A DNA stretch of 49,608 bases, from positions 1-49,608 of IMG/VR virus record IMGVR_UViG_3300033981_000316. One strand, written 5' to 3'. Each line of letters starts with the position of its first letter. The stretch's first letter is position 1. The notes under the pieces were generated by a model. It searched no databases, was not told the DNA's origin, and saw nothing but the letters and a program-made list of their open reading frames with translations. Made by a program: the position numbers and the translations under genes. This document shows, one piece after another, positions 1 through 22,540 of this stretch. Origin of the DNA: a virus.

Positions 1-687
1 ACCTCTTCTATCATAATAAGCACCTATTGCTTCATCTGATGCAACATATGGATTAGGCCTAAGACCTACTGAACCGTATGTACTCATTTTACCATCCATA
101 TTTTGTTTATCATGAAAAAGTTCATGCGCCAACCACCAAGGATTATTTATATTTTCTATTGGACTATTTGGATTATATGTTATAGTTCTAAATGCAGAAT
201 TATAACCTAATTGATGTTCAGGATTATTAGGATCATAATTTTTTATTGGAACATATGTTATACCACCATCTTGAAAATATGGAGAATTAGGATCAAAGAT
301 TTTATTCTTTACAGATTTTGATTTTTTAAATAACGGGTTTTTTGTAAATAATATATTCCTAGCCATTAAGCTTTTGGAATATTTTTTAGGATACTTTTTA
401 CTACCACCTTTCTTAGCTTGTGGTATTTCATAAACCATGTCTCCTTCAAACTGATACTCATTACCTGGAGTCATGTATTGTGCATTACCTAAATTATCTA
501 TACCCAATAAGTCATCTTCTACTCCTTTCATGGTTATCTTTCCAGTAGGTGTAGGTACTGCAGTAGGAAGACCTGGGTAATCCCATTGCCCTCTTTCAGA
601 AACAATAAATCCTTGAGTAAATCTTTTTAACTCATTTGGACCACCGGGTAAACCAGCTTTTTCATATTTCTTAAAAGACTTCTTCAT
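1..687 (-). CDS. Virion-associated protein with HExxH zincin-like site (partial, 3' end cut by window edge)
   Basis: I translated 229 residues from the ATG at 685-687; the gene continues past base 1. The first 100 residues (QWDYPGLPTAVPTPTGKITM and the following GVEDDLLG and PGNEYQFEG segments) resemble an N-terminal domain I recall from large virion or cargo proteins of crAss-like phages. A basic KKGGSKK segment follows at about 92-98. Residues 188-192 read HELFH, the HExxH zinc-protease signature, inside WWLAHELFHD, and E219 (SDEAIGAYY) is placed as a possible third zinc ligand. A Zn-dependent endopeptidase in the virion, for maturation or for host entry, is inferred. The ATG overlaps the stop of the muzzle gene by one base, so the two are probably translated together. 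Confidence 0.75.
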   Translation of the reverse strand, partial: MKKSFKKYEKAGLPGGPNELKRFTQGFIVSERGQWDYPGLPTAVPTPTGKITMKGVEDDLLGIDNLGNAQYMTPGNEYQFEGDMVYEIPQAKKGGSKKYPKKYSKSLMARNILFTKNPLFKKSKSVKNKIFDPNSPYFQDGGITYVPIKNYDPNNPEHQLGYNSAFRTITYNPNSPIENINNPWWLAHELFHDKQNMDGKMSTYGSVGLRPNPYVASDEAIGAYYDRRG

Positions 688-3600
688 TATCTTATTGACA
701 TTTCATTTTTACTATTTACAACTTTTAATATAAAGTTGATATCTCTTTCTTGTTCTGTAGCAAGTTTAGATAAAAATAAATAATTTAAGTAATGTCTAAA
801 CTTCTTTCTTTGAGTATCTAACTTAGCATAATTTAAGTTTGCATTATTCAAAGTTTTAATATAACCATTTGGTTCTGTATTCCAAATAAATTGTTCAGAA
901 TAATTACCAAGAAGTTGTGTAGTTCCAGGAACAAGAGGTCCTGTTGGAGGGTAATCTGACCCAATTGGAAATTCTCCTCTATCTTTTGTAATATCCCAAT
1001 ACTGATTAAACCTATACTTATTTTCTTCTTTTGAAAATAATATATCAAATGAAGATAAGTTGGATTGATTTAATTTAGGATATTGTAATGAAAGAGTAAT
1101 ATTATTTTTTGGGAATATGTTTAAATTAAGATATCCAGATACTTGCTCTGTGTTAGATATAACTGCTTGACTAAAGTTTGCATCAAGAACATGAAACTGA
1201 TCTACACAGTTAAATTGTGAATATCTATAACACTCTAAGGTATATTCTATTGATCTTACAATACTTGGAGCAGATCCTGTATTTATTGGATACTCTATTT
1301 CAAAAGGATATTGTGTACCATAAAAATTACAGAAGTCATCACATACATCATTATGTCTCCAGATTGTATTACCTTTTACAGTAAACAATGTTTCTTTAGA
1401 TGAAAATACAAGATCTGGATGCCAATCATGATAACTAATAAATACTTGTAATTTAGGGTCATAACTTACAGTCCATGATGCATCAACAAAAACATTTGGG
1501 TGCCCTAATGGATAATTTACTCCAAGATAATTAAACTTATTTGTTTCTGGATTATAAGATACTTTACCTATATCCTTTCTTAACTGATAATCTTTCTTAG
1601 TAAAGTATAGTATAGATGATCTTGTATCATATCCTGCTTGAACACCAATACCAGCTACTGGATTATCTTGATGTGGATAATCTGGAAAATCTTCTGTTAG
1701 CTTATATGGTAAAAATAAAGAAAACCACCACTTCAATCCATTTTGTGAAATTTCTTTTATACCCTCACCATATGCAAAAAGTTTACCCTGATTCATTGAT
1801 GCATAATATAATCCAGCTGGTGAGTATATTACAGATCTTATATTTTGAGATGAACCATATTCAAATGGTGCATCAGCATTTACTGCAGACTGTGGAGGAT
1901 TACTAAATAAACCACCATCTCCAATAGTTACTTTTTTACCAGATAAAGTCTGTAATGTATCTATACCTTGATAGAACAAAGGTCCTGTAGTTGGGAATGT
2001 AAAGATCATACCTGTCATACCAACAGGTTTTACCGTAGTAATTTTATCATTAAACTGTACATAGTTTAATGGTAAATAGATCAACCAATTATTATCATAG
2101 GATTGATCATCTTGGTACAATGAGTATAACGCTCTATTTGGATAATATGTAAAACATAATTCTGCAACTTGAGGATCATAATTTGCACCTTGTGTTGATC
2201 CGGCAGAAAGATACTGTGTAAAAAACTTAGTAACACTTAATGAATAATCATAGTTATAAAAGTTACCCTTAGTAATTACTTCTGGATTCATATCAAACAG
2301 CTGTCTTAAATCTGTATATTGATATGGTATATATGGTTGTTGTGATTGTAAAGTTCCTTGTGATCTAAAGTCTACAAGTACATTACTCTCTACAAAGAAA
2401 TCTCTTACACCAGAATTAGCTAAATACATGTATGAATCCTTAACAGATAAAAATCCTGGATAGTTTCCTTCCGTATCATTTTGTCTATCATAATTATCAT
2501 TATCTAAATTATAATATCCTTTTGGCATTGGACCAGTACCAAATGTTGGCTGAGGAGTTAGTAAAGATATTATATCTGCAATTGTTGTTGCAATATTACC
2601 ACCAGCAGCAATTGGATTTTCATCTTTACTGTATGGTGCAGTATTCATCCAATACCTTGCTGTAGGTATATTATTATATAATGCATAGTTCCATATAGTT
2701 CCATCAGGTAAATTATATAACCAGTTGTAAAAGAAAAGCATTGTGTTCTTTTCTGTAAATCTGTTTATATAAGTATCTCCTCCAAATATAATTTCTGATG
2801 TTGGAAGAACTTTATGAAATACTTGTCCATTCAACGGGCAGTTGCCAGATGTTGGTTGAGAAATTATATTATTAGGATCAAATTTTTGTTCACACGTTGT
2901 TGCAACAACTTGTTTAATACTATCAATTCTACCATATTGATTTTGTACATTATATTTTAATCCAACATAATGACTTGCTATATTTCCTAAAAATTGTTTA
3001 AATAATGATTCATTTTTAAAACTCATATCAAAGCTTGGAACATCAGTTGCTTTACCAAGATTAATTAATGAGTTATCTTCTTGAAAACCAATTTGCTGTG
3101 TTGATCCAACATATGTACCAACTAACTGCGGTCCTATTGTTGGAGCAATGGTAGGTGATGTGTATGTTGTATTTGGAGCAGAAGTTCTAATAAAGACTGT
3201 CTTAGGTCTAGAAAGATTATTTATTGTAAATCTTTGAAAATTACCAAATCCATTTAAATAATCTGGAACCTCTTGATTTCTATCACTAAGATAGAACCCG
3301 TTTTCAATTTTAAATCTTTTTAAGAAATTAGTATTAGGTGCAACAAATCTTGCATAGAATCCATGTGCTAATGATTGTAAAGCATATTGTCTAAATGGTA
3401 AAAATGCTTGAATAATTCTTAGTGTTGTATTGAACCCCTCAGTAAAATAATATGGTAACTGCACACCAATATTTATTGCGCTTGTTGCAAAAACACCAAG
3501 CCCTAAATTATTTAAAACAGTTGCTGTATTATAATCTGTTATAAGTGTTGTTGGTGGATATAGTCCAATATTTGCATATGATTGTGCCGTTGTTTCAAAA

Positions 3601-6140
3601 ATCTCTTCAAGCGTTAAAGATGCCGGATTACCAGGTCCAGTAATTGCACCAGAAATTTGTTGAGAGGCACTATTAAAATAGTTATTAAGTTGTGTATAAA
3701 AGTTAAATGCATTACTTGCAGCAGCATTTACTGTAAATGAATCAAGATCTCCTGGTGGTGGATTTGGTGGTGTTAAGTTATTACCATTACCACCTGCAAT
3801 ATTCCAATAATCATATTTTTGATAAGGGACTTGAAAATCTGGAAGAGCTGGTGATGATATCTGTTTCTTACCCAATAAGTTTAATAAAGCATTTCCAAGA
3901 CCAGCTATAATTGCAATATAAACCGCAGCATTACTCATCAACTGATTTTCAGGATGCTTATCTGGTATTACAAAAGAATGTACTGAGTTACCTTCTAAAC
4001 TTCCATAGATTTTTAATTCAGTTTGGTTTATAAAAGGATTTCTAAAGCTAGTATCTGGAGATGTAAATGTAAGAAGGTTTTTTGGTATACCTTGATTTAC
4101 AAATGTTTCATTTCCATCTTTATCTATAGTGGTTGTTTTAATAAAAGGATCATTATAATAATAATCATGATCTCCAATATTTGCAGTATTATCTAATGGT
4201 ATTGAACAGTTAAATGGATAGTTTGCATATAGTCCTGTTCTATTACCTTTTGATTGCCCCTGTATAGGATAAGTCCTAAAGTTATTAATCATCCCTTTAG
4301 CAACTATACTAAGATTACCTTCTCTTGAACCTCTTAGTATTTCATATCCAACTATATTAGGAATATCATTACCGTCATTATCTTTTGGGTAGATTATATT
4401 ATTAAACTCTACACCCATTATTCTAATAAACTTTTTACCATCAGAAGCATTAGCATTTTCTACTCTAAAGTGATATGTATCAGGTGTTAATGCATTATCT
4501 GGAAACTTGTGATGTCTAATAGGTTTACCACAAAGATCATATCTTGGATCTTTAGTAGCTGTCCAACACTGTGAACTTGAATTCCATATGTTAGGTTGGT
4601 TATCAGGATATATTTCTGTAGATTGCCAGTATCCCATTTTACCTTTAGCTAATACAACTCCTCCATCAGGTAATACTGGATAGTTAGGAAAGTATGTATC
4701 TGTCTGCCAAGCTGTATTTACAGTTTCAAATAATAATGTGTTATCTACAAAACTATTCTTATCTGTATATGTATCAGCATCTTTTGTATTTGCAGGAACA
4801 TTATCTGGATTTGGTGTTGGATAGTTTTCTTCTGGTCTTCCAGGAATGTGATAAGATGCAGATTTATCTCCAGTATTGTATACCCATCTTATAAAGAAAG
4901 CATATACCTCATCTCTAAGATAACCTACTTTAGATCCTCCAGTAATATAATAGTCTTCAGGATATTCAACTGACACCCATTTAGTATTTATCAAATTAGC
5001 AAGTGGCTGATAATTAAAATCAAATTTAGATGTGGGAGCAATTCTAAGTAAGTACTGTCCAACATTAACTATCTGATCTGATTTCTCATATACTGGATTT
5101 AATAATGGTATAGCTGATGTTGGTATAGTTATTAATGTCTGTGGTATATCATCTAATAAGATTGATGTTTCAGAAGTAGAATAATAACCAATCTGTTTTG
5201 CTTGAACATTTTCATTAATTGATCTAACTATTACTAATTCAAACTGCTCAAAGTTTTCAGTGTCTAAATCTAATGTTAATAGTAATGATCCTTGTGAAAC
5301 ATCATTAGGATTATATACTGGTTGAAGATTACTTGGAGAAAAATAATTAGTTACATTCTGACCCTTAATAGAATATGCTACAACGGCAAAGTAAGTTCCA
5401 TTTTCTAATGTACCTGTACCAGGTGCAATTGAAAGTTGAACGCATGGTGTCTGTACTAATGATGCCAATCTTATTTTGTCACAATCTAAAAAGTTTAAAT
5501 CTGTACATATTTTACAATCTCCAGGAGTACATTTTTGTTCCCATGCAGTAATTGGCCATAATACAGTTCCACTTGATGAAATATATCTATTATAATTTAT
5601 ACCTGCTGTAGCTTGATTAGAGCCACCCCATTGAAAAGATGAATCTGGCCATGTCTTTGGATCACCAATATTTAAATATCTATCAGGATTTAAACCATCT
5701 GCCCAATACACTTCCCACTTACAATCTCCCTTTTGTCTAGAAGCTCCGGTAATTAAATTATATGGACTAAAATTTAAACATGGTGCAGAAACAATTGGTC
5801 TATACAAACAATGTTCTTCTTCATATAAACCAATTTCAGAATTAACAGGTTTACCATTTACAGTAGCAACAGTAAATATAATCCACTTATCCGCATATAA
5901 ATGTATAATACCAATAATAGCTTTATCACCCTGCATGGTCTCTCCACTTGTTCCGCAGAGATAGTTTGAGTCCTCATTAGATAAAGTACCTAGGTTACCC
6001 TCATCAGTATTATTGACCATGTTTCTTGCATGTGTCCATAGTCCAGATGTTACAAATGATGGGTCTGTATCTTTATTTAGACCTTTAGAGAAACTATTTG
6101 TAATATTCTGAGTAGTATTTTGAAGACCTTTTTTAGCCAT
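687..6140 (-). CDS. Giant tail muzzle/stabilization-type protein (1817 aa)
   Basis: This is the longest gene in the window. The N-terminus (FSKGLNKDTDPSFV, then LWTHARNMVNN) and the repeated beta-strand-rich, Asn/Tyr/Pro-rich sequence fit the large tail proteins of crAss-like phages, which I associate with the tail muzzle and, more distantly, with P22 gp10/T7 gp12-like tail tube and stabilization proteins. It lies directly downstream of two ring-protein genes, where such a protein is expected. A low-hydrophobicity Pro/Asn stretch sits near residues 780-800. Assignment to the muzzle rests on size, position and N-terminal pattern, not on a structural search. The start is the ATG at 6140, overlapping the upstream stop by one base. 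Confidence 0.8.
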   Translation of the reverse strand: MAKKGLQNTTQNITNSFSKGLNKDTDPSFVTSGLWTHARNMVNNTDEGNLGTLSNEDSNYLCGTSGETMQGDKAIIGIIHLYADKWIIFTVATVNGKPVNSEIGLYEEEHCLYRPIVSAPCLNFSPYNLITGASRQKGDCKWEVYWADGLNPDRYLNIGDPKTWPDSSFQWGGSNQATAGINYNRYISSSGTVLWPITAWEQKCTPGDCKICTDLNFLDCDKIRLASLVQTPCVQLSIAPGTGTLENGTYFAVVAYSIKGQNVTNYFSPSNLQPVYNPNDVSQGSLLLTLDLDTENFEQFELVIVRSINENVQAKQIGYYSTSETSILLDDIPQTLITIPTSAIPLLNPVYEKSDQIVNVGQYLLRIAPTSKFDFNYQPLANLINTKWVSVEYPEDYYITGGSKVGYLRDEVYAFFIRWVYNTGDKSASYHIPGRPEENYPTPNPDNVPANTKDADTYTDKNSFVDNTLLFETVNTAWQTDTYFPNYPVLPDGGVVLAKGKMGYWQSTEIYPDNQPNIWNSSSQCWTATKDPRYDLCGKPIRHHKFPDNALTPDTYHFRVENANASDGKKFIRIMGVEFNNIIYPKDNDGNDIPNIVGYEILRGSREGNLSIVAKGMINNFRTYPIQGQSKGNRTGLYANYPFNCSIPLDNTANIGDHDYYYNDPFIKTTTIDKDGNETFVNQGIPKNLLTFTSPDTSFRNPFINQTELKIYGSLEGNSVHSFVIPDKHPENQLMSNAAVYIAIIAGLGNALLNLLGKKQISSPALPDFQVPYQKYDYWNIAGGNGNNLTPPNPPPGDLDSFTVNAAASNAFNFYTQLNNYFNSASQQISGAITGPGNPASLTLEEIFETTAQSYANIGLYPPTTLITDYNTATVLNNLGLGVFATSAINIGVQLPYYFTEGFNTTLRIIQAFLPFRQYALQSLAHGFYARFVAPNTNFLKRFKIENGFYLSDRNQEVPDYLNGFGNFQRFTINNLSRPKTVFIRTSAPNTTYTSPTIAPTIGPQLVGTYVGSTQQIGFQEDNSLINLGKATDVPSFDMSFKNESLFKQFLGNIASHYVGLKYNVQNQYGRIDSIKQVVATTCEQKFDPNNIISQPTSGNCPLNGQVFHKVLPTSEIIFGGDTYINRFTEKNTMLFFYNWLYNLPDGTIWNYALYNNIPTARYWMNTAPYSKDENPIAAGGNIATTIADIISLLTPQPTFGTGPMPKGYYNLDNDNYDRQNDTEGNYPGFLSVKDSYMYLANSGVRDFFVESNVLVDFRSQGTLQSQQPYIPYQYTDLRQLFDMNPEVITKGNFYNYDYSLSVTKFFTQYLSAGSTQGANYDPQVAELCFTYYPNRALYSLYQDDQSYDNNWLIYLPLNYVQFNDKITTVKPVGMTGMIFTFPTTGPLFYQGIDTLQTLSGKKVTIGDGGLFSNPPQSAVNADAPFEYGSSQNIRSVIYSPAGLYYASMNQGKLFAYGEGIKEISQNGLKWWFSLFLPYKLTEDFPDYPHQDNPVAGIGVQAGYDTRSSILYFTKKDYQLRKDIGKVSYNPETNKFNYLGVNYPLGHPNVFVDASWTVSYDPKLQVFISYHDWHPDLVFSSKETLFTVKGNTIWRHNDVCDDFCNFYGTQYPFEIEYPINTGSAPSIVRSIEYTLECYRYSQFNCVDQFHVLDANFSQAVISNTEQVSGYLNLNIFPKNNITLSLQYPKLNQSNLSSFDILFSKEENKYRFNQYWDITKDRGEFPIGSDYPPTGPLVPGTTQLLGNYSEQFIWNTEPNGYIKTLNNANLNYAKLDTQRKKFRHYLNYLFLSKLATEQERDINFILKVVNSKNEMSIR

Positions 6141-7186
6141 TATATTATTCTATTGCCGGTTAAGTTTCTATAATATGCTGCATTAGGAGAATAACTTTCA
6201 AACATATAGTAATACTTACCATACATTGATTTTCTATTTGTCCACCACATCTTTTCAAGTTCCTTGAAGTTTGGTGTATTAACAACACTTAATGCTTGAT
6301 TTCTAGCTGCTCTTAATCTTTGTTCAATTAACTGCATTCTTTGTGCTACATCCTCACCATTAATATATAGGTTTTCAAGTATTCTAGATTTTAAAGCATA
6401 TTCATAATATTCATTTATTAGATCATGATCTGGGACCATTAAGTATCCTTGATCATTTACCATTTCACCTTGATAATTTAAATATACCTTACCAGTTTCA
6501 AATGTTGTAAATAGAAAACCACCTTTTATCCAACCTTGGTTTGCTGTATTAAAATAAAGATTTGGACAGTCACATTCTATTTCTTGACTAGCCTTCATTC
6601 TTAATGGTAATAAATCTGTGTAAACTCTTGTAGCTCCAGAATTATTCATTACTTGAACTAGTTCCCACTTTTCCCCTTTACAATTCATAAAAACTCTAGG
6701 TGCAATACAAGTATCACCATAAGGATTGTTTGGGTCATACTCTGTAGGTATTGGATCTACTATAGGAAAATTAAGATCACATGCTGCAGTTTTGTTACAT
6801 GGATTAGAATTACATGTTCTGCAGTTAACTGTTGGTGGTGCACACACATCTGTAGTAGATGGAGTTTCTTGGTATCTTACTTCTTGTATATTAGTTCCTG
6901 CAGACATTGGACCATATCCAACTTGTTGAACATAGTTACCGCATACTAATGCAAAGTTAAATACATAAAAATCATCTGGTAGTTTTACCTTACCATGACA
7001 TACATCTAGAATAACTTCTTTAGTTTGATTTACCCTTAGACCAAGATCATAATTTAGTTTTTTAACCAGCTTAATTAATTGCTGAGGCTCTATCATGTTT
7101 TCTAGAGCAAAGGTGTTTAAATCAACTGTTACATCTTCTAACAATTGATCAAAAGTTCTATATCTAAGAGTATAATTAAAATCCAT
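6140..7186 (-). CDS. Tail ring/connector protein of crAss-like phages (348 aa)
   Basis: The protein opens with MDFNYTLRYRTFDQLLEDV and continues with a KLNYDLGLRV helix and a KLPDDFYVFNFAL segment, a pattern I recognise from ring-type connector proteins in crAss-like structural modules. Residues about 110-145 form a cysteine-rich insertion with many CxxC/CxC pairs, which could be a zinc or disulfide-stabilised loop. The C-terminal third is helical and basic. It overlaps its upstream and downstream neighbours by one base each, so ring proteins and muzzle form one translational unit. The exact ring number in the tail cannot be assigned from sequence alone. Confidence 0.7.
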   Translation of the reverse strand: MDFNYTLRYRTFDQLLEDVTVDLNTFALENMIEPQQLIKLVKKLNYDLGLRVNQTKEVILDVCHGKVKLPDDFYVFNFALVCGNYVQQVGYGPMSAGTNIQEVRYQETPSTTDVCAPPTVNCRTCNSNPCNKTAACDLNFPIVDPIPTEYDPNNPYGDTCIAPRVFMNCKGEKWELVQVMNNSGATRVYTDLLPLRMKASQEIECDCPNLYFNTANQGWIKGGFLFTTFETGKVYLNYQGEMVNDQGYLMVPDHDLINEYYEYALKSRILENLYINGEDVAQRMQLIEQRLRAARNQALSVVNTPNFKELEKMWWTNRKSMYGKYYYMFESYSPNAAYYRNLTGNRII

Positions 7187-7851
7187 TATCTAAGTATATT
7201 TTGACCATCATCAGGACCATCTGTTGGAACCTGCATAGTCATAGTTAATTCTTTAATTACAAACTGCTCTACTTCAGAAAATAAATACTCTGGAATAGTT
7301 AATAATTTATCTTGTGCTATCTCACACTGTTGAGCAGGATCACACGGATCAGTTACTCCTTGAAAGATAGCCTCCATTCTAATTGCTTCCCAATCTATAT
7401 TGGGGCAGTATAAATATCCATTTAAATACCAAAAATATTTTCTTGTATTATATTTAAATGTAGTAGTCTTTGTCATTGAAACCCATGTACCCGGATCTGT
7501 TCTAAACATTTCTATACTACCATCTATTGAAGATACTGTACGTATAACAGGACCAAATGTTCCTTCTAATATAGTTGGTAGTTTATCTTTTGTTCTTTTA
7601 AAATAACATCCAGAATAAACACCAAGACATCCAGCTTCTACTTTATCTACATCTATAAGTTCAAGATATGGTAATACCTGAAATATAGAGCTAATCTTCA
7701 TTAGCTTGAATTGATTATCCTCTCTCTTTAAAAGAGTCTGGCCATATTTAATTAGAGAGCTATAGATTACTCTATCAGTTAAAAAAGAATCTTCTTTAAC
7801 TGCTTTTAAAGTATTTCTAACCCGTGATATTGCTTCACCTATAGTTGTCAT
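7186..7851 (-). CDS. Tail ring/adaptor protein of crAss-like phages (221 aa)
   Basis: The N-terminus (MTTIGEAISRVRNTLKAVKE, then DSFLTDRVIYSSLIKYGQTL) is a strongly conserved helical pair in crAss-like phages and is typical of head-tail ring or adaptor proteins. A beta-rich middle follows and the C-terminus returns to helix (EYLFSEVEQFVIKELTM). It sits between the 193-aa gene upstream (4-base overlap) and the 348-aa ring gene downstream (1-base overlap). I infer that it contributes a dodecameric ring below the portal; the precise level is unknown. Confidence 0.72.
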   Translation of the reverse strand: MTTIGEAISRVRNTLKAVKEDSFLTDRVIYSSLIKYGQTLLKREDNQFKLMKISSIFQVLPYLELIDVDKVEAGCLGVYSGCYFKRTKDKLPTILEGTFGPVIRTVSSIDGSIEMFRTDPGTWVSMTKTTTFKYNTRKYFWYLNGYLYCPNIDWEAIRMEAIFQGVTDPCDPAQQCEIAQDKLLTIPEYLFSEVEQFVIKELTMTMQVPTDGPDDGQNILR

Positions 7852-8429
7852 AGTTCAAATTCATTATATTGTTTTAAGTCCTCCTGTAGCTTTTTTTGCA
7901 TAGAGTTGACTAAAAAATTTTTAGTATGGTTAAGTTTTATTTTTGCTGTTGGTTCAACTACAAGATACATATTCCAATTTTCTGGATAAGCTTTAGAAAC
8001 CGCTCTTTTAAATTCTCTACATGCAGTAAATCCCCAAAATTCTCTATTCTTCATTTTGTGTTTTAATGCATAACTTGTAAAAAATATTTTTGCTAGTTTA
8101 CCATCTGTTTCCCAATTCTTATTTGTAACAGATACTCCATACTTCTTTGACTTTGCAAAATCAGTATTTTGTTTTTTTGGACTTTGACATGTTCCAATAA
8201 ATATCCAACCTATTTGTTCAGGTAGTTGAACACCATCCCTTGTATCAATAACTGTTTGATAAAAAGTATTATTAAAAGATTTTATAATCTTTCTTAAGTC
8301 TTTATCATCCATCTGTTTATACTTAGGATATTTCTTTTTAAAACTTTCAAAGAACTTCTTGTTCATAATTGTATGTACTTCAGGTCTATACCTTGGTGCA
8401 TTTAAGTCTGGACTTTTAAATTCCTTCAT
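7848..8429 (-). CDS. Conserved structural-module protein (193 aa)
   Basis: Basic protein beginning MKEFKSPDLNAPRYRPEVHT. The N-terminal half is Lys-rich and helical (FFESFKKKYPKYKQMDDKDL), the middle is hydrophobic (EQIGWIFIGTCQSPKKQN) and the C-terminus is helical. I recognise it only as a gene that usually heads the ring-protein operon of crAss-like phages. It is the first gene after a strong terminator at 8481-8510 and follows an AT-rich promoter-like element, so it probably opens the tail transcription unit. A role in tail or connector assembly is inferred from position. Confidence 0.6.
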   Translation of the reverse strand: MKEFKSPDLNAPRYRPEVHTIMNKKFFESFKKKYPKYKQMDDKDLRKIIKSFNNTFYQTVIDTRDGVQLPEQIGWIFIGTCQSPKKQNTDFAKSKKYGVSVTNKNWETDGKLAKIFFTSYALKHKMKNREFWGFTACREFKRAVSKAYPENWNMYLVVEPTAKIKLNHTKNFLVNSMQKKLQEDLKQYNEFEL

Positions 8430-8440
8430 ACTATACTATT

Positions 8441-8448
8441 TAATATAC
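8441..8448 (-). promoter_or_regulatory. Candidate late promoter element, GTATATTA
   Basis: On the minus strand TTAGTATATTAAATAG lies between the terminator at 8481-8510 and the start codon at 8429. The same octamer on the same strand occurs in other short gaps (11244-11251, 38897-38904, 40274-40281, 41990-41997). It is a promoter candidate by position only. Confidence 0.3.
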
Positions 8449-8480
8449 TAAAAATAAATGACTTTAACAAATATAGCAAT

Positions 8481-8510
8481 AAAAGCAAAACCCCCGCGAG
8501 TGCAGGGGTT
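8481..8510 (-). terminator. Intrinsic terminator after the 333-aa appendage gene
   Basis: Read on the minus strand, AACCCCTGC pairs with GCGGGGGTT (nine pairs with one G-U, loop ACTC), followed by TTGCTTTTA. It closes the transcript of the appendage genes and separates them from the tail-ring operon. Confidence 0.85.
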
Positions 8511-8545
8511 CTACCAGTTGTTACAGAAACCAACAAACTGCAACT

Positions 8546-9547
8546 TTATATTTGTTCAACCATCATTTGAGCTTGTAATAACCAAGCTGCAGATGTTGCA
8601 TCTTTTGTTTTAAATTTTAAACTAACTGTTTCACCAGCATTTAAAGTAATATAATAAAAGAAAGAAACATTAAATGGTAACTGACCATTTAAGAATCTAA
8701 ACTCAACTGTATTACCTGCAGTAGTTAAAACTTGATCAGGTGCAATAGAAGATCTATTTACAATATCTCCAACATTTGCACCATCCATTAATGATCCTGA
8801 TAATAACGGTCTTCCAAAATTTTGATAAACTGGTGTATCAATAAAACCAACAGTTTTTATAATTGCTCCATCAACCCAGTTTGCAATATTAGAACTATTT
8901 GCTGATGTTGGTAATGTAACTGTATCATATGATACCCATACTTTATAATTCTTAGCTGCACCTCCAGGATTAGTATATGATAATGCAGAATAATTTACAT
9001 TTGGAAAACTATATATACTTGGTGTTGCACCAGCATTAAGATTTACTGTTTGTACATTATCATCATAGAAAAATTCTTTTGCTGTCGCATTTACAGTATA
9101 TGTAGTTGTGTTACCTACTGTAGATGAAGTAATATTAATTCCTGTTCCTGATTCAAGTTGTACAACTGGCAATTGTGTTGGATCAAAACAAATTGTATAT
9201 GTAGTTACTCCTGTTACTGGGTTAGTGACTGAAGTTATATCTAAATAATCATTTGTATTACATACCTCTACAACAGATCCTAAGTCTGGGCCAGTAATAT
9301 ACTCACAGAAAAAACTAATAATTGCATTAATAGCATCTGCTAAATTTGTATTAGTATCAACAACAACTTGTTGTATACATTCAATTGGTAATCCACTATA
9401 TACAACACATTCTGCATCAAATACCTCAGAACATGCAATTGGATTAGGACATCCTGCTGGAGTAGGACATGGTGCAGGTGAAATTAATCCATTATCTGAA
9501 CATCCACATTTTTTACATCCACAAGAAGTACAAGTATTATGAGCCAT
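8546..9547 (-). CDS. Cys-rich-N-terminus appendage/tail-fibre protein (333 aa)
   Basis: The N-terminus carries a cysteine knot-like stretch (CTSCGCKKCGCSD, residues 6-18) followed by a domain with CVVYSGLPIECIQQ that resembles residues 17-35 of the next upstream gene product. The rest is Thr/Asn/Val-rich beta sequence, and residues about 165-333 form a probable globular distal domain (FFYDDNVQTVNLNAGATPSI onward). The pattern fits a virion appendage with a shared N-terminal anchor and a variable C-terminal tip. It is the last gene before the terminator at 8481-8510. Receptor binding is possible but not shown. Confidence 0.6.
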   Translation of the reverse strand: MAHNTCTSCGCKKCGCSDNGLISPAPCPTPAGCPNPIACSEVFDAECVVYSGLPIECIQQVVVDTNTNLADAINAIISFFCEYITGPDLGSVVEVCNTNDYLDITSVTNPVTGVTTYTICFDPTQLPVVQLESGTGINITSSTVGNTTTYTVNATAKEFFYDDNVQTVNLNAGATPSIYSFPNVNYSALSYTNPGGAAKNYKVWVSYDTVTLPTSANSSNIANWVDGAIIKTVGFIDTPVYQNFGRPLLSGSLMDGANVGDIVNRSSIAPDQVLTTAGNTVEFRFLNGQLPFNVSFFYYITLNAGETVSLKFKTKDATSAAWLLQAQMMVEQI

Positions 9548-9558
9548 AGTTTAAATTA

Positions 9559-11238
9559 TTAAGGACAAACAATTGGTGTTGGTATATCTGTAGTACATGG
9601 ATTAATATAAGCAATCAAACCATCAAGTTGAAAAATAAATCCTCCAAGATTTGTTTCATCATTTGCGTTACAGCTAAACTGATATCTTAGATTTGCATTA
9701 TATTCCATGTTAAGAGGAATGGTTCCCGCAGCAGCATTACTGTTTACATTAGTATTTATATTATCAAACTTTGGAACATAATCTCCAAGACGAACATGTG
9801 AAATAATATAGTTTAAATGTGAAGTATCATAAGCAGCTGTTCCAGAAAAAATGTTTTGTTCTGCATTTTTAACTAATGCAAAGCTTAAAGTTTTATTACT
9901 TGAAATAGATAAGAATCCAACAGTTGTTAAAATTGTACTTGTATCAGGAGCATTGTCAATCTGAGTTCTTCTATATCCTGTAGAAAATTCTTTAGTATAA
10001 TTATCATCTAATAATTCTGCAACTCCCATTACTGTAGATGGAATAACTACATTACCTTGATTAAATGTAATTAATCCAGAACCACTTGTAATAACAGACC
10101 CTGGTCCAACAGATGCAGGAGTAACAGTAGTTGATAAATAATAAGTATCAATTGGTGGAACATTTTGATATTGCCATAACAATGGTGCACCTGTTCCATC
10201 ATCAATAGGTATCATTACTTGACCTTTAAAATGCAATACATTACCAATTCTTCTTACTCTTGGTCTTAATGCATCTGTATCAGATCCAGTATAGAAACTA
10301 AAACCATCTAGGTCTACCCAACCTGTATCAAGAATCTTTGATGATACAGTATAAGCAGGTCCACCAGTTACTGTTGTAGCTATTGTGTTTGTAGTAGCTC
10401 CTGTAACTGTTACTGTTGTACCATTGTATATATCACATAATACAATCCATAAATTATTAATCACAGAAGCGATTGTACTTGCTGGTTGTATCCAAGTAGG
10501 ATATTGTGCAGCATATGTAGCAGCAGGATTTACTTTTGTAAAATCTGTACCCGCAATACACTGAGCAGTTACTGCACTTAGTAAAGATGCAGTTGATCCA
10601 GTTGCAGCATAGAATCCACACCAAACATCATTTATAAACTCTTCTAGCACTACATCTATTCCATATGAGTTTCCAGAAATAAGTGAATTAATAGGACAGT
10701 TTATTGTAAATGATGGTAATGTAAATACAGGTGCAGGAGTTGTTTCTAGTGTAGTTACTCTAACATCTAGATCATTAATCTGTAAATTAATTGTGCTTAT
10801 TTGTGTAATAAGATCACAAATTTTAGTACCCATTGCCTGGGCATATTCTGCAACAGACATTACAGTTGTTGAACCTATAACAAAACATGGTGCTACAGTA
10901 ACTAAAGTATCTGCTGTTGTTGTTCTTACAGTTGCGGATGGAGTTGCTACTGCAGTTGTTTGAGCAGTTTGCAGTGCACAAATCTTTTCAATTAAAAATT
11001 GAATTAATTCTTGAAAATTATTTGGTGCACAGCTTGAAAGATTAAAACAAGATAAATCATATCCATTAACATCTAGTAGGTCTAATACATTACAAAGCTC
11101 AGTTGCAAGCTTATGAATTACATTAGATACAGTGTCTCCAGTACATAATTTTATACAAGGAATATCTGGACCTTGCCATATCACACAGTTACTTGATATT
11201 GGACTACAAGGGCTATTATCTAAATTTAGAGGTTTCAT
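9559..11238 (-). CDS. Appendage/tail-fibre protein (559 aa)
   Basis: The N-terminus CVIWQGPDIPCIKLCTGDT matches in pattern the CVVYSGLPIECIQQVVVDT of the neighbouring 333-aa protein, so both probably attach to the same virion site. Helical segments at about 35-75 and 125-165 (ISTINLQINDLDVRVTTLE is coiled-coil-like) suggest a trimeric stalk. The C-terminal 250 residues are Thr/Val/Ser-rich beta sequence (ILDTGWVDLDGFSFYTG onward) typical of phage fibre tips. It is 11 bases from its downstream neighbour and 19 bases from the upstream Cys-rich gene. Function as an appendage is inferred. Confidence 0.6.
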   Translation of the reverse strand: MKPLNLDNSPCSPISSNCVIWQGPDIPCIKLCTGDTVSNVIHKLATELCNVLDLLDVNGYDLSCFNLSSCAPNNFQELIQFLIEKICALQTAQTTAVATPSATVRTTTADTLVTVAPCFVIGSTTVMSVAEYAQAMGTKICDLITQISTINLQINDLDVRVTTLETTPAPVFTLPSFTINCPINSLISGNSYGIDVVLEEFINDVWCGFYAATGSTASLLSAVTAQCIAGTDFTKVNPAATYAAQYPTWIQPASTIASVINNLWIVLCDIYNGTTVTVTGATTNTIATTVTGGPAYTVSSKILDTGWVDLDGFSFYTGSDTDALRPRVRRIGNVLHFKGQVMIPIDDGTGAPLLWQYQNVPPIDTYYLSTTVTPASVGPGSVITSGSGLITFNQGNVVIPSTVMGVAELLDDNYTKEFSTGYRRTQIDNAPDTSTILTTVGFLSISSNKTLSFALVKNAEQNIFSGTAAYDTSHLNYIISHVRLGDYVPKFDNINTNVNSNAAAGTIPLNMEYNANLRYQFSCNANDETNLGGFIFQLDGLIAYINPCTTDIPTPIVCP

Positions 11239-13301: not shown

Positions 13302-13862
13302 TTAACAATTTGTACAAGACAATTTATTTAAAAGCTTTAAAGCATAGTTGTATAAAGCCATTCCTTTCTGTGGCTCATGACAAAACTCTACTTTAGATTT
13401 TGCAGCTTGAAGATACATAAATATTAATCTAAGCTCCTCTAGCTTCTGTTGTATTTTAAATGGTGGTTCACATGCTGCTACATCAACATCACAAAGTATT
13501 TTGTAATATTTATTTAGGGCATGTGTTACCCTTAAATGATTATATTCTACATAAACTGTTTCATTAGGTGAAACACTATATTTTATAATATAAATACCAT
13601 CTGGTAAATTATAATATGAAGTTCCACAGTCTACAGTTTGTAGTTGTAAATCACAAGCAGTTATGGTAGCAGATCCTGTAGTATAAAAATTTGTAGCATC
13701 TATTTGATTAGAATATCCAAATCCTGGAACAGTAATGTTCAAGGTAGGACATACTACAGGTATTGCAGGATTTGCTGTTTGATACACACTTGTGTCAAGT
13801 AATTTAAGAACACATTCATTCATTACTTGAGGCACCTCTAAACTTAATACATGATTTGCCAT
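13302..13862 (-). CDS. Conserved structural-module protein (186 aa)
   Basis: The N-terminal two thirds are beta-rich with an immunoglobulin-like feel (LPDGIYIIKYSVSPNETVYV), and the C-terminal 55 residues are helical (IQQKLEELRLIFMYLQAAKS), ending in CTNC. It contains about a dozen cysteines, like its downstream neighbours. The protein follows the terminator at 13876-13910 and precedes the small zinc-ribbon gene, so it opens the Cys-rich appendage unit. I do not recognise a named family; an adaptor between tail and appendages is a reasonable inference. Confidence 0.55.
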   Translation of the reverse strand: MANHVLSLEVPQVMNECVLKLLDTSVYQTANPAIPVVCPTLNITVPGFGYSNQIDATNFYTTGSATITACDLQLQTVDCGTSYYNLPDGIYIIKYSVSPNETVYVEYNHLRVTHALNKYYKILCDVDVAACEPPFKIQQKLEELRLIFMYLQAAKSKVEFCHEPQKGMALYNYALKLLNKLSCTNC

Positions 13863-13934: not shown

Positions 13935-15578
13935 TTAGATTCCACACTGAGCTGGAAGAGCTGGAAACTCAATAGCTGAGCATGTAGACTCACAACTAAA
14001 TGTTTCAATCTCACAAACTCCACAGTTATTTAACCAATCAGTAGTAGCAGTAACAAATGCAGCACCACTTGCAGGAGAAGTAAAGATAACTTCTAACAAG
14101 TATTGGTCATTGTCAAATGTACCGGTAGGATTGTTAAATCTTGGAACACTGTGTTGCAAGTAAGTTTTGTAATAAAGTGCTTGTCTGTTGATAGCATTTA
14201 CTATTTGGTTACCTTGTGTAATCTCTCTGATACGGAAATCTGAAGAGAAGAAGTTTTGTCTGTAAGACTCAGAAAGAATCACATCTCTAAGAACTGTTTC
14301 TCCAAGACCCATAGCTTGGCTACCAAGACACTCATTAACTACACAAAGACCTTCAAACTGACAAGGATCTCCATTAAGATCTACTTCACTTGGATACAAG
14401 TTAATTGGTTGTTTCTCATAGAAGTCAGAAATTTGGAAAGTACAATCTCCAAATCTTGTATCTACATAAGCACCATTAAGAATTAAACCTGCACATGCAC
14501 CAGCAGTATGTCCTGGAGATACATAGTTATTCCAAGTATCAGCACCAACTGAAGCTAAGAAAGCTGCATCTGTTCCTGGAGCATACCAGATAACACCTGC
14601 CTCATCCTGAATAGCAATTTGGAAGAATGGAGATACAATTGGAGAGTTTAATAGATCATTAGCCCAAAGGATCATAACTTCAGTAGAATCTACTGCAGTT
14701 GGAGCAATAGCTCCTGCTGGACAGCATCCTGTATAAGCAGATGCAGTATAGTATGCATTGTGATCTAAGAATCTTAGAGCAGGAGAACCTTTAACATCTA
14801 AACGAAGATAGTAAGTCTCACCACATAAGAATTCTTTACAACAGTTAGTTCCAGAAATAACTGGAGCAATTGCAGTTGTAACAGTTAATACATCAATAGT
14901 AGCATCATTGTTACCTGCATCAATAGTTAATGTATCACCAATTGTATATCCTTTACCAGGAGAAAGAAGTGCAACAGCAGTTACTACACCAAGACCATTT
15001 GCATTAAATTCTACAATTGCACCTGTACCTGTACCACCAGTTACACCAGCAGTAGAAGTACCAGCTGGATATCCAGTACCACCAACTAATGATCCTGCAT
15101 CAAGAGTAAGAACACCACCACCTGCACTAGCATAAGTAGAACCAACGTGTACTACATTGTTAGTAGGAGTACAAGGCTCTACATCATAAAATCTAGATAC
15201 ATACTTAGGGTTAACAACTTTAGACTTATTAGTCTCTTGATAACCACCAATGAATGGACTAACTTTATCTTTACAATAGATAGTAGATCCTGCAAGATAA
15301 AGAGGACAACATTCAGTTGCTGTACTAGGAACAACAGAAAGATTAGTTTTAGTATCAAACCAACCAACATAGTTATTCTCAAGACTACCAAATGAAGAAG
15401 TTGCTGCAACTGCCAACTGATTTAATGCATAAGTTGGGCGACTTGCAGTTGATAAAAATCCACCAGTAGCAGATGCATTACCTAATGCACCTCCACTTGG
15501 ATTAGTGATAGCTACAGGACCAATTGTGGCTCCTGTTGCCAAAAACGTTTTTCTAAACGCGTGATTAAAATAAGCCAT
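13935..15578 (-). CDS. Probable abundant virion structural protein (547 aa)
   Basis: Begins MAYFNHAFRKTFLATGATIG, an N-terminus I recognise as conserved in crAss-like structural modules. The middle (residues about 150-225) is Gly/Thr/Ala-rich with a short repeated pattern, and the C-terminal part is mixed alpha/beta with CEIETFSCESTCS near the end. Codon choice is richer in GC-ending codons than in neighbours, and the gene has its own 78-base AT-rich leader and a strong terminator, as does the capsid gene; I infer high expression. A capsid-auxiliary or tail structural role is likely, but the exact position in the virion is not clear. Confidence 0.6.
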   Translation of the reverse strand: MAYFNHAFRKTFLATGATIGPVAITNPSGGALGNASATGGFLSTASRPTYALNQLAVAATSSFGSLENNYVGWFDTKTNLSVVPSTATECCPLYLAGSTIYCKDKVSPFIGGYQETNKSKVVNPKYVSRFYDVEPCTPTNNVVHVGSTYASAGGGVLTLDAGSLVGGTGYPAGTSTAGVTGGTGTGAIVEFNANGLGVVTAVALLSPGKGYTIGDTLTIDAGNNDATIDVLTVTTAIAPVISGTNCCKEFLCGETYYLRLDVKGSPALRFLDHNAYYTASAYTGCCPAGAIAPTAVDSTEVMILWANDLLNSPIVSPFFQIAIQDEAGVIWYAPGTDAAFLASVGADTWNNYVSPGHTAGACAGLILNGAYVDTRFGDCTFQISDFYEKQPINLYPSEVDLNGDPCQFEGLCVVNECLGSQAMGLGETVLRDVILSESYRQNFFSSDFRIREITQGNQIVNAINRQALYYKTYLQHSVPRFNNPTGTFDNDQYLLEVIFTSPASGAAFVTATTDWLNNCGVCEIETFSCESTCSAIEFPALPAQCGI

Positions 15579-15608
15579 TTTTTTTATAATTTAATTAAAC
15601 AAAGAATA

Positions 15609-15623
15609 TACTATAATATAGTA
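15609..15623. promoter_or_regulatory. Inverted repeat in the leader of the 547-aa gene
   Basis: TACTATAATATAGTA is a perfect palindrome (seven-base arms) between the ferritin stop and the next start codon, with a T-run on the minus strand before it. It may be an operator or part of a promoter for this probably highly expressed gene. Confidence 0.35.
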
Positions 15624-15656: not shown

Positions 15657-16286
15657 TTATCCAGCTACTTCTGCCATATCATTATCTAATAGTCTTAAAG
15701 CTAATGGATCTGTACCAAATGTTCTTAGTTTATCCATCCAAGTTTGCATCTTATCATGCTCTTCAACTTGTTCTTTTAAGTATCCTAAACATAATTCATA
15801 AAGAATATGATCCTTATTTGACATTGCAAAATCTGCCATTTTTTTAATTTGAGTAGATACTTCTATCTCATGCTCATAAGATAACCTTACAATTTCTGGA
15901 AGACTTCCTGAAAAATCTTGTTGTGGTTGATCTAATCTTGGAGTTAATGGTTGTACTCCAAATGATAATAAATACTTACGTGCAATATCAGCATGAGTTA
16001 ATTCTTCATCTGAATACTTTCTCCATAGAGCAGCAGCACCTTTGAATCCTTTTTCATCTAACCACATTGTCATTGACATATAAATTCTAGAAGAATACTC
16101 TTCTTGTTGAATTCTATAATTTAAATAGTCAACAGCATTATCTGTAATTAATGGGTTCATAGTAGCTACATCTGGAACTTCTTTTGATGCACCAGAACTT
16201 GGTTTATCAATACTAGGAATTCCTGTAGATGGCGGAAGTTTTACTACACTTGTATCTAATCTTTTTAATAATCTTTTCTGTTCCAT
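15657..16286 (-). CDS. Ferritin (209 aa) with complete ferroxidase-site pattern and N-terminal extension
   Basis: Residues about 48-190 align by eye along the whole four-helix ferritin domain. Helix A has E62 in QEEYSSRIYMSM, helix B has E95-L-T-H98 in SDEELTHAD, helix C has E140 in YEHEIEV, and helix D has Q173 and E176 in KEQVEEHDKM. These match the diiron ligands of E. coli FtnA (E17, E50, H53, E94, Q127, E130). The first 45 residues are a Pro/Ser/Lys-rich extension absent from ordinary ferritins, possibly a virion-targeting tail. The gene is 6 bases from the adaptor gene and inside the structural block. Activity would be Fe(II) oxidation and storage. Fold and site are well supported; a virion role is inferred from position. 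Confidence 0.9.
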   Translation of the reverse strand: MEQKRLLKRLDTSVVKLPPSTGIPSIDKPSSGASKEVPDVATMNPLITDNAVDYLNYRIQQEEYSSRIYMSMTMWLDEKGFKGAAALWRKYSDEELTHADIARKYLLSFGVQPLTPRLDQPQQDFSGSLPEIVRLSYEHEIEVSTQIKKMADFAMSNKDHILYELCLGYLKEQVEEHDKMQTWMDKLRTFGTDPLALRLLDNDMAEVAG

Positions 16287-16292
16287 TTTATA

Positions 16293-16994
16293 TTAGTTGT
16301 TTCTTTCAGCAGTTTCTGTACCTCTAGAGAATTGGTTTCCAGATTCAATATCTCCAGCTATAATACTAACTGCCTCATCTATTATTACTTCTATTATATC
16401 ATCTTTAAATTCACACTCTACATTTGCAGTAGACTGAACCCCTGTATATGGATCTACACAACCATCAATTTGTATCTTTCTAGGTTGTCTATAGTATGTA
16501 AGATCTACTTCAGAGATATTAAAGTCATTATTTGTGTAGACATTAATTCTGTCATCTATAAGTGTAGCAAATGTTTCCGCCCATTCAAAACTTGGTTGTT
16601 TTAATTTATCTCTTAAAAGTACAGATACATTACCTTCTTCTGCAAGATATACTACCATCCTTCTTTTATCACAGCAATCCTTTTGTGCATATACATCTAC
16701 TCTTTTCCATTGTAAATAATCTTGAGGAATGCTTAAGAATGAATAGTCTCCTTTATCAGTTAATCCACCAATAGTAGTTTTATAAAGAAGAACTTGTAAG
16801 TCATCCTTTCTCCGGGTAGATTGCTCATCACCTTCTTTAACAATATTAATACCGTGCAACTGCCTTCTAGACCATTCTACTTGGGCTTTATTAAATGCCT
16901 CTACTACCTGCCAACATTCTATGTTGTCGTAGTCTTGGCTATCTAATTTATTTAGCCTTTGCTTAATCTTTACAGTTATAGTACTATTTAACAT
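16293..16994 (-). CDS. Head-tail adaptor/ring protein of crAss-like phages (233 aa)
   Basis: The N-terminal helical part (IKQRLNKLDSQDYDNIECWQ, then VVEAFNKAQVEWSRRQLHG) followed by a beta domain (SFLSIPQDYLQWKRVDVYA) and a C-terminal helix (IIEVIIDEAVSIIAGDIES) is the arrangement of P22 gp4-like or crAss-like adaptor proteins that bind under the portal. It lies 3 bases downstream of the last basic cargo-like gene and 6 bases upstream of the ferritin gene. I am fairly sure of the adaptor class, less of its exact ring. Confidence 0.7.
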   Translation of the reverse strand: MLNSTITVKIKQRLNKLDSQDYDNIECWQVVEAFNKAQVEWSRRQLHGINIVKEGDEQSTRRKDDLQVLLYKTTIGGLTDKGDYSFLSIPQDYLQWKRVDVYAQKDCCDKRRMVVYLAEEGNVSVLLRDKLKQPSFEWAETFATLIDDRINVYTNNDFNISEVDLTYYRQPRKIQIDGCVDPYTGVQSTANVECEFKDDIIEVIIDEAVSIIAGDIESGNQFSRGTETAERNN

Positions 16995-20920: not shown

Positions 20921-22540
20921 TTATAGAGAGCCACCAGTGATTGGGTTTCTCATAACAATTTTCAAGACTTTTGTAGGGTCTTTTACCCAGATAGCTGGCA
21001 TTGTTTGAGACATCATCACACGGTACCCGTTGAATTGTCCAGAAGACTGGAATCCTTGAGTTCTTCCCATGTAGTCCATAGTACCATTTTGGTACCACCA
21101 CTTCAATTGGTTATCCCAAGAAAGTTTCAACATAAAGATGTTATCATTAGTGTTATCTGTGATATCAAAGATAATAAAGCTGTAAGAAGATAATGGGAAA
21201 CCATCAATGATTGGGTTCTCAATATCATTTGTATGAACATTGTCAAATGCTGGGTTAAGAACAAACTTAACATTTGCCAAGAATGGAATTACATATGAAG
21301 TATAAGCAAATCCAAAGTTCAAGTCCATACCTTTACCAGTGATAGCACCAATATCAGCAGCCTGAATTAACAAACCTGAAGAGATAGCTTCTTGCTTGAT
21401 GGCCTCATTAACCATACGCATACCACCCATACCAGTTTGTACAATAAGAGATCTTTTTGGATCTGGTCCTTGGAACTCAACCTTACCATTGAAGAAGTTA
21501 TAGATTTCTCCACGGAATAAGTCAAGAGTAAAGTTATTTTTGTTGTATACTCTTTTGAACGCATTGTTCAATTGTTGCCAAAGTCCAACAGATAATCTGA
21601 TATCATCTGGACCATCTTGCTTAACTTTACCTCCTTGTCCCCACATTAAGTAAGTCTCAATGTCAGTTGCAATTTTAGAAAGGTGAGCTGCTTCCATGTT
21701 TGTCAAGAAAGTTCTAGACAAATCTCCGTTATCAAATGCTTTTTTAACAGCATCTTTACCCATAACTTTTACCATATCCTCTAAAGATGTGATAGATGGA
21801 TCAGTAACATTTTTGTCAAATGTTCTCCAGATCTCTGTTACAGGAATAGTACCATCTGCATTCATACCACCTTTGATCATTAAGTCTGCTCTAGAAGAGA
21901 TAGAATAATGTACGTGAGCTTCAGCACCACCAACAAAGTTGTAGTATTCACGGAAACCAGCTTGTGTAATGATGTCAGAAAATCTTTCACCATACTCACC
22001 TCTTGCAGAACCTTTTCTGAAGAATCTAGTTCCATTAGCTAAATATGCATTGTCTAAGAATCTAGTGTTGTCATTATTTACAAGTTGAACAGTGTAAATA
22101 AATCCATCACCAATTGGAAGAATGTCTTCATCTGTGATGTACAATTCCACACCATTATACTTGTCATAAGTAATAATGTCACCGTGACCAAATTCTCTAC
22201 GGCTTAATTTAATTCTGAAGGTTGTTCCATCAATACCTTTGAAAGTATTTGTTGGTTCAATATCTTCAATTACATATGGAAGATCTGTAGAGACAGGAGT
22301 CTGCCACTTATACTCTCCACGAGCATTATCAACCATAATTACATTTTTGCCACCAAAGCTAGAAAGCTGATAAAGGGGCATTTCTACTTTTTGAGCCATA
22401 GCCCAAAGGTCTACTGGACCTAAATCCATAGGTTCAGCATCTTTTAACATATTCACTAAGTGATAAGAGTCTACATGCGATGAAGCTTGGTAGGCTGTAT
22501 CTCTCAGGAATATCCCATTGTTTAAAATTGGAGTTGCCAT
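20921..22540 (-). CDS. Major capsid protein, crAss-type HK97 fold (539 aa)
   Basis: The N-terminus MATPILNNGIFLRDTAYQAS and the RKGSARGEYGERFSDI region match the crAss-like capsid protein as I know it. It lies in the standard order portal, scaffold-like, capsid. Length (539 aa) is near that of other crAss-like capsids. A Tyr/Asn/Asp-rich beta region at about 430-510 and a short positively charged C-terminus fit an HK97-like protein with insertion domains. The gene has a short leader and a strong terminator, and uses more GC-rich codons than its neighbours, consistent with very high expression. Confidence 0.92.
   Translation of the reverse strand: MATPILNNGIFLRDTAYQASSHVDSYHLVNMLKDAEPMDLGPVDLWAMAQKVEMPLYQLSSFGGKNVIMVDNARGEYKWQTPVSTDLPYVIEDIEPTNTFKGIDGTTFRIKLSRREFGHGDIITYDKYNGVELYITDEDILPIGDGFIYTVQLVNNDNTRFLDNAYLANGTRFFRKGSARGEYGERFSDIITQAGFREYYNFVGGAEAHVHYSISSRADLMIKGGMNADGTIPVTEIWRTFDKNVTDPSITSLEDMVKVMGKDAVKKAFDNGDLSRTFLTNMEAAHLSKIATDIETYLMWGQGGKVKQDGPDDIRLSVGLWQQLNNAFKRVYNKNNFTLDLFRGEIYNFFNGKVEFQGPDPKRSLIVQTGMGGMRMVNEAIKQEAISSGLLIQAADIGAITGKGMDLNFGFAYTSYVIPFLANVKFVLNPAFDNVHTNDIENPIIDGFPLSSYSFIIFDITDNTNDNIFMLKLSWDNQLKWWYQNGTMDYMGRTQGFQSSGQFNGYRVMMSQTMPAIWVKDPTKVLKIVMRNPITGGSL

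Follow-up and report, generated by a model that had tools for sequence, protein, structure and literature searches.

Ferritin and Dps-like genes with a common N-terminal tag replace each other in a Crassvirales-type virion operon

Encapsulins, shells of the HK97 fold, load ferritin-like proteins (EncFtn, IMEF) via short targeting peptides on flexible linkers, and different cargo classes share this loading logic (PMC11202242). Ferritin-superfamily enzymes also occur in phages. As far as the accessible text of the two papers goes, gut phages of the Gratiaviridae encode DPS and Mn-catalase, which are discussed as oxidative-stress enzymes (PMC8008677), and a ferritin-like gene lies near the replication genes of Lactobacillus phages (PMC6669764), with no common tag, exchange or virion-operon slot reported in either case. 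Within the crass-like phages, capsid and tail of phiCrAss001 virions contain cargo protein amounting to several MDa, which means that this order has space for cargo, and no ferritin or Dps-like protein is reported among the named cargo proteins (PMC10172136).

In this study, we examined a ferritin gene in a phage structural operon and found that the ferritin opens with a short peptide and is exchanged for a Dps-like protein in sister phages. The likeness to encapsulin cargo lies in the combination of ferroxidase, flexible linker and short peptide, and in different cargo classes sharing one logic. It is a likeness in outline, since encapsulin targeting peptides are usually C-terminal, whereas the tag described here is N-terminal and the particle is a phage; what the sequences establish here is a lineage-bound tag, and we do not file the locus as a member of the encapsulin systems. 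A literature search on ferritin or Dps in virions, on DUF5856 and on ferritins of crass-like phages returned no earlier account of tagged ferritins and Dps proteins replacing each other in a virion operon, which is weak evidence given its slight coverage of subscription and preprint sources.

An FtnA-type ferritin in the virion operon

The window, i.e., the whole analysed stretch of 49,608 nucleotides (IMG/VR record IMGVR_UViG_3300033981_000316), contains a Crassvirales-type virion operon with genes for the major capsid protein (MCP), the muzzle protein and tail ring proteins 1 and 2; a P22-like portal match fell below Pfam's cut-off. The relevant features, with E-values in brackets, are as follows.

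687 to 6140, minus strand: Crassvirus muzzle protein (crAss_MUZ, 5.7e-28)
6140 to 7186, minus strand: tail ring protein 1 (CrAss_Ring_1, 5.9e-14)
7186 to 7851, minus strand: tail ring protein 2 (CrAss_Ring_2, 2.8e-23)
13935 to 15578, minus strand: virion structural protein, directly downstream of the ferritin gene (PHROG 18802, 9e-7)
15606 to 15620, minus strand: AT-rich motif TATATTATAGTATAT between the ferritin gene and the structural protein gene, kept in several relatives
15657 to 16286, minus strand: FtnA-type ferritin of 209 amino acids (Pfam PF00210, PHROG 16594, PDB 3qz3, AF2 model)
15660 to 16145, minus strand: ferritin domain, residues 48 to 209, with the A/B/C iron-site ligands E62, E94, E95, H98, E140, E172, Q173, E175 and E176
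16152 to 16253, minus strand: Pro/Ser/Lys-rich disordered linker, residues 12 to 45 (pLDDT mostly below 50), without similarity between ferritin and Dps versions
16254 to 16286, minus strand: N-terminal tag, residues 1 to 11, MEQKRLLKRLD, common to the Dps versions of the slot
16293 to 16994, minus strand: tail-barrel ring-protein family (R3/R4/R5 type), directly upstream in transcription (profile match to a homologue in locus L309)
20921 to 22540, minus strand: major capsid protein (Crass_capsid, 9.8e-31)

The ferritin start codon lies 6 nt after the stop codon of the ring-protein gene. A profile of this ring-protein family found no direct match in the PDB, and the family link runs via the L309 homologue, which is matched by the window's profile with an E-value of 5e-11 and itself matches gp34 (2e-7) and gp35 (2e-6) of phiCrAss001. 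A reading made from the sequence alone had placed the ferritin inside the structural operon, between an adaptor and a structural protein. The order of ring protein, ferritin and structural protein bears out the operon setting and the downstream flank, but the supposed adaptor belongs to the tail-barrel ring-protein family instead. For the products of 13935 to 15578 and 13302 to 13862, no solved relative was found by sequence. The AT-rich motif TATATTATAGTATAT is partly palindromic, has equivalents in three relatives (L057, L017 and L128) and is kept whichever of the two genes is present; it is a possible candidate for a promoter or a recombination site.

The open reading frame had been delimited exactly and recognized as a ferritin over its helices, and both points hold. 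Pfam Ferritin (PF00210) matches residues 53 to 189 with an E-value of 3.5e-26 and PHROG 16594 matches with 1.1e-22, while the nearest solved relative by sequence is the Vibrio cholerae ferritin 3qz3 (3e-26), to which the predicted fold compares with a TM score of 0.92 and an rmsd of 1.5 Å. The AF2 model (pLDDT 82.6) shows, with high confidence, four long helices and a short fifth one (residues 49 to 78, 82 to 108, 129 to 156, 160 to 190 and 194 to 208). In the alignment, E62, E95, H98, E140, Q173 and E176 correspond to E17, E50, H53, E94, Q127 and E130 of Escherichia coli FtnA, in agreement with the complete ferroxidase ligand set proposed before, and the residues of the third iron site (C site), E94, E172 and E175, are present as well. 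The fold, the A/B/C-site ligands and the C-terminal fifth helix are thus common to the window ferritin and bacterial FtnA (V. cholerae 3qz3, E. coli 1eum). Unlike the bacterial proteins, the window ferritin has a disordered, tagged N terminus of 45 amino acids, is encoded in a phage virion operon and is exchanged for Dps in relatives.

Loss of ligands in relatives, which would have spoken against a functional enzyme, was not seen: all A/B/C-site residues are invariant in the 52 ferritins found in the same slot, and an earlier survey of 37 phage ferritins from several lineages, which counted these residues except E94, found all of them invariant. The ferritin domain has a pN/pS of 0.09, indicating purifying selection. 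With intact active sites and purifying selection, ferroxidase competence of the window ferritin is very likely and, as judged from sequence, well supported; enzyme activity and cage assembly are predicted properties of the slot proteins. Invariant ligands and the low pN/pS rule out a decayed ferritin. An ordinary, recently acquired host ferritin was also rejected as a full account, since a genome scan returned a single close relative outside the virus collection, a 5.5-kb contig of ambiguous origin, and the synteny is fixed across ferritins of 55 to 100% identity.

Exchange of ferritin and Dps-like genes in one slot

In relatives sampled via an MCP 89 to 97% identical to that of the window, 42 slots downstream of the ring-protein gene were readable, and 41 of these encode a Dps-like protein and one a ferritin. 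The protein that takes the place of the ferritin has 149 to 172 amino acids and starts with the same opening peptide, followed by a DUF5856/PHROG 858 Dps-like domain (1e-11 to 1e-15 for DUF5856, 1e-17 to 1e-21 for PHROG 858). It is matched by Dps/NapA profiles and was aligned with NapA. The top Foldseek matches of its predicted fold in the PDB are Dps proteins, with a probability of 1.00 but an E-value of just 0.017, and the TM score against Dps folds is near 0.5 when computed with the disordered tail included. The inter-subunit ferroxidase ligands of E. coli Dps (H51, H63, D78 and E82) have equivalents at the right spacing, H70, H82, D97 and E101 in the L057 protein (spacing 12, 15 and 4), which are invariant in 114 of 114 slot Dps proteins. 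A Dps-led scan placed the gene directly after the ring-protein gene in all 80 loci returned. Most relatives of the window thus hold in this slot a domain of the DUF5856/PHROG 858 phage family where the window holds a ferritin, and the slot versions differ from other members of that family by their LKR tag and their fixed position after the ring protein. The gene rI.-1 of RB49, JSE and other T4-type phages, annotated as "starvation-inducible transcriptional regulator", is distantly related to the slot Dps and possibly encodes a Dps instead of a regulator.

A ferritin-led search of IMG/VR yielded 52 loci, mostly with the same gene order, and an alignment-based search enlarged this set. In total, 332 loci with ring-protein genes from several scans were classified and counted once per distinct ring protein. 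This gave 117 slots with Dps, 54 with ferritin and 15 empty ones, totals that are not frequencies because the scans were partly ferritin- and Dps-led; the less biased samples gave Dps-to-ferritin ratios of 41:1 (MCP-led) and 24:5 (first ring-led). Three further distinct ring proteins were left unclassified by BLAST, and the loci L349 and L374 read as Dps. The start codon of the cargo gene, as we call the gene in the slot, mostly lies 0 to 13 nt after the ring-protein stop codon, and wherever the ferritin was found in the window's lineage it was kept beside the gene once taken for an adaptor.

The two cargo genes exclude each other. No slot in the window's lineage holds both among the classified loci, and each of 19 near-complete records contains exactly one cargo over its full length, a ferritin in 10 and a Dps in 9. 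The ring-protein tree implies at least 24 switches between Dps and ferritin, 15 of which are forced by supported branches (16 and 11, respectively, in a smaller tree). Like the active sites, the tag and the synteny, this mutual exclusion and repeated exchange can be read from the sequences themselves. The exchange is the strongest feature of the locus and lay beyond the reach of the sequence-only reading. The clearest pair are L290, with ferritin, and L340, with Dps, whose flanks are 98 to 99% identical over about 6 kb. They diverge at codon 12, immediately after the unchanged tag MAEQPRNLLKR, and rejoin past the stop codon of the cargo gene. A third locus with the same ring protein, L337, has lost both tag and cargo, and at L337:3717-3781 the start codon is fused, out of frame, to the remaining last codons of a Dps gene. 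The empty slots in some relatives and this natural deletion indicate that the cargo gene is dispensable, at least in L337.

Absence from syntenic relatives had been put forward as an argument against a role of the ferritin. The ferritin is indeed missing in most of the closest relatives, yet a tagged Dps stands in its place, which favours a shared need for a ferroxidase over a refutation of the role. Since one cage is swapped for another of different subunit count, the selected function would be what the two share, namely iron oxidation and sequestration, and not a property of either cage type.

The N-terminal tag and its possible roles

The 45-residue N-terminal extension that the sequence-only reading had noted is real and disordered in the AF2 model, with pLDDT values below 50 at residues 1 to 26 and 31 to 36. 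Slot ferritins and slot Dps proteins open with the same short tag of core xLKR (e.g., MEKPRMLKR in a Dps version), which varies by lineage, as in MAEQPRNLLKR, MNTPQRGLLKR and MQKLTRPSIF. Among the 5044 ORFs of the loci then compared, an N-terminal R[ML]LKR was limited to the ferritin and Dps genes of the slot. In comparisons of ferritins with Dps proteins, tag similarity tracks ring-protein similarity (Spearman rho 0.47, 0 of 999 permutations as high), while the same comparison of residues 15 to 26 shows no such link. The tag is thus a property of the phage lineage, whichever cargo follows it. Its pN/pS of 0.25 to 0.48, versus 0.09 to 0.15 for the domains, indicates a constraint that is weaker than that on the cages.

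Two other accounts of the tag were rejected. A general virion sorting tag common to many proteins is unsupported, as the motif heads no other ORF in that set. Retention merely as DNA is likewise unsupported, because the tags of L283 and L206 are identical as protein and differ synonymously as DNA. As the tag adjoins the ring-protein gene, its lineage link may partly reflect linkage and crossovers favoured by short homology; retention of the tag at the protein level and its variation between lineages are less readily explained in this way.

Most simply, the retained tag is a docking peptide for a phage-specific partner, and the operon setting makes a virion or assembly protein the natural candidate. 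We infer virion localisation, late expression and the function of the tag, and on balance we lean towards the explanation that the tag serves to dock an exchangeable ferroxidase cage onto a partner specific to the phage, and that the cage is probably virion-associated. The cargo gene would then consist of two parts, about 11 codons of tag (core xLKR) with a flexible linker, and a ferroxidase cage domain, which would be a 24-mer-type FtnA ferritin in the window and a 12-mer-type Dps in sister phages. Cargo would be made late, together with the ring protein encoded just upstream, and the tag would bind its partner, the likeliest candidates being virion and assembly proteins, thereby tethering the cage to the particle or assembly site. 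There the cage would take up Fe(II) and consume O2 or H2O2, shielding genome or particle from Fenton damage. The two families would swap through recombination downstream of the tag; if the selected job is "ferroxidase attached to this tag", ferritin and Dps can replace each other. Such an arrangement suggests a replaceable iron-handling module attached to something of the phage's own, possibly the virus particle. The roles proposed from the sequence alone are partly supported by this, in that an iron module associated with the virion is a plausible role, for which the lineage-bound tag now gives a better reason.

More tentative, with chances slightly under even, is the fuller claim that these environmental crass-like phages use the lineage-specific N-terminal tag to place an exchangeable ferroxidase nanocage in or on the virion, which would thereby bring along its own means of detoxifying iron and oxidants. 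Cargo loading of the encapsulin kind would then have a phage equivalent that accepts ferritin or Dps alike. Should the tag indeed direct cargo, an abundant phage order would possess a natural protein-loading system for which evolution has already produced matched cargo swaps, and the tag would be a possible loading peptide. Whether virions carry iron-handling enzymes would become directly testable, and the locus would offer a present-day parallel to how encapsulins, HK97-fold shells carrying ferritin-like cargo, arose.

Alternatively, ferritin and Dps could be soluble late auxiliary proteins that store host iron or limit oxidative damage in the infected cell during replication, an explanation we regard as unlikely but deserving of weight. 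The operon position would then just provide late expression, and the tag would be a by-product of recombination or translation coupling. The short distance between ring-protein stop and cargo start, as in coupled translation, is in line with this, as is the DUF5856-like gene that adjoins the holin gene in Methylophilaceae phage P19250A. The DPS and Mn-catalase of the Gratiaviridae (PMC8008677) and the location of the Lactobacillus phage gene (PMC6669764), as described in the accessible text, point the same way. Solubility accounts poorly, however, for one peptide that is kept at the protein level, tracks the lineage and heads two cage families, and for ferritins that recur beside capsid or portal genes in L298, L309, L326 and L324. 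Even with a cytosolic protein, the repeated one-for-one exchange would mean that the phages were selected for ferroxidase activity itself and not for either protein as such.

E. coli Dps has a Lys/Arg-rich, basic N-terminal tail with an established role in DNA binding. By analogy, the tag might be a DNA-binding tail that brings either cage onto phage DNA without a protein partner, and protects or condenses that DNA before or after packaging. The tail is disordered in the models of both ferritin and Dps, and its mean net charge is positive (+2.4 and +2.0, respectively, over the first 14 residues; +3.2 and +2.9 over the N-extension). The charge is modest, though, and the conserved core is hydrophobic as well as basic and varies by lineage, which resembles a protein-binding motif more than generic DNA binding, so that we consider this reading improbable. 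A Ferrojan-type use, in which iron carried by the virion is presented to TonB-dependent receptors of the host and aids adsorption, is very improbable: the position of the ferritin gene among tail ring protein genes would allow a tail location, but exchange with Dps, whose main function is detoxification, gives no indication that iron is presented.

Ferritins and Dps-like proteins of other phages

Ferritin genes beside head genes were found outside the window's lineage. In a second crass-like lineage, the ferritin directly follows the portal gene (L309 and L326). In L298, tandem genes for Dps and ferritin lie between those for portal and MCP (7558 to 8931) and are followed by an ORF of 87 amino acids that by eye reads like GroES. 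In an unrelated phage (L324:7998-11759), the ferritin gene is directly followed by those for a head maturation protease (PHROG 1028) and an MCP (PHROG 752). The ferritins of these four loci lack the LKR tag. Further ferritins lie upstream of portal-cluster genes (L264, L278 and L285).

Leptolyngbya phage Lbo-JY46 (PP438436), which has a recorded cyanobacterial host, encodes a crass-like MCP 28% identical to that of the window, and its slot has no ferritin or Dps annotated. In five phages not recognisably related to the window (L038, L040, L044, L051 and L053, near position 10000), untagged ferritins were observed immediately upstream of large ORFs without clear Pfam families, several of which have about 1400 to 1900 amino acids. 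Ferritin-fold matches in BFVD with weak E-values included three proteins annotated as "Prohead protease" (A0A6J7WPK9, A0A6J7WIS1 and A0A6J7XDU5), possibly reflecting Dps-protease fusions in other phages.
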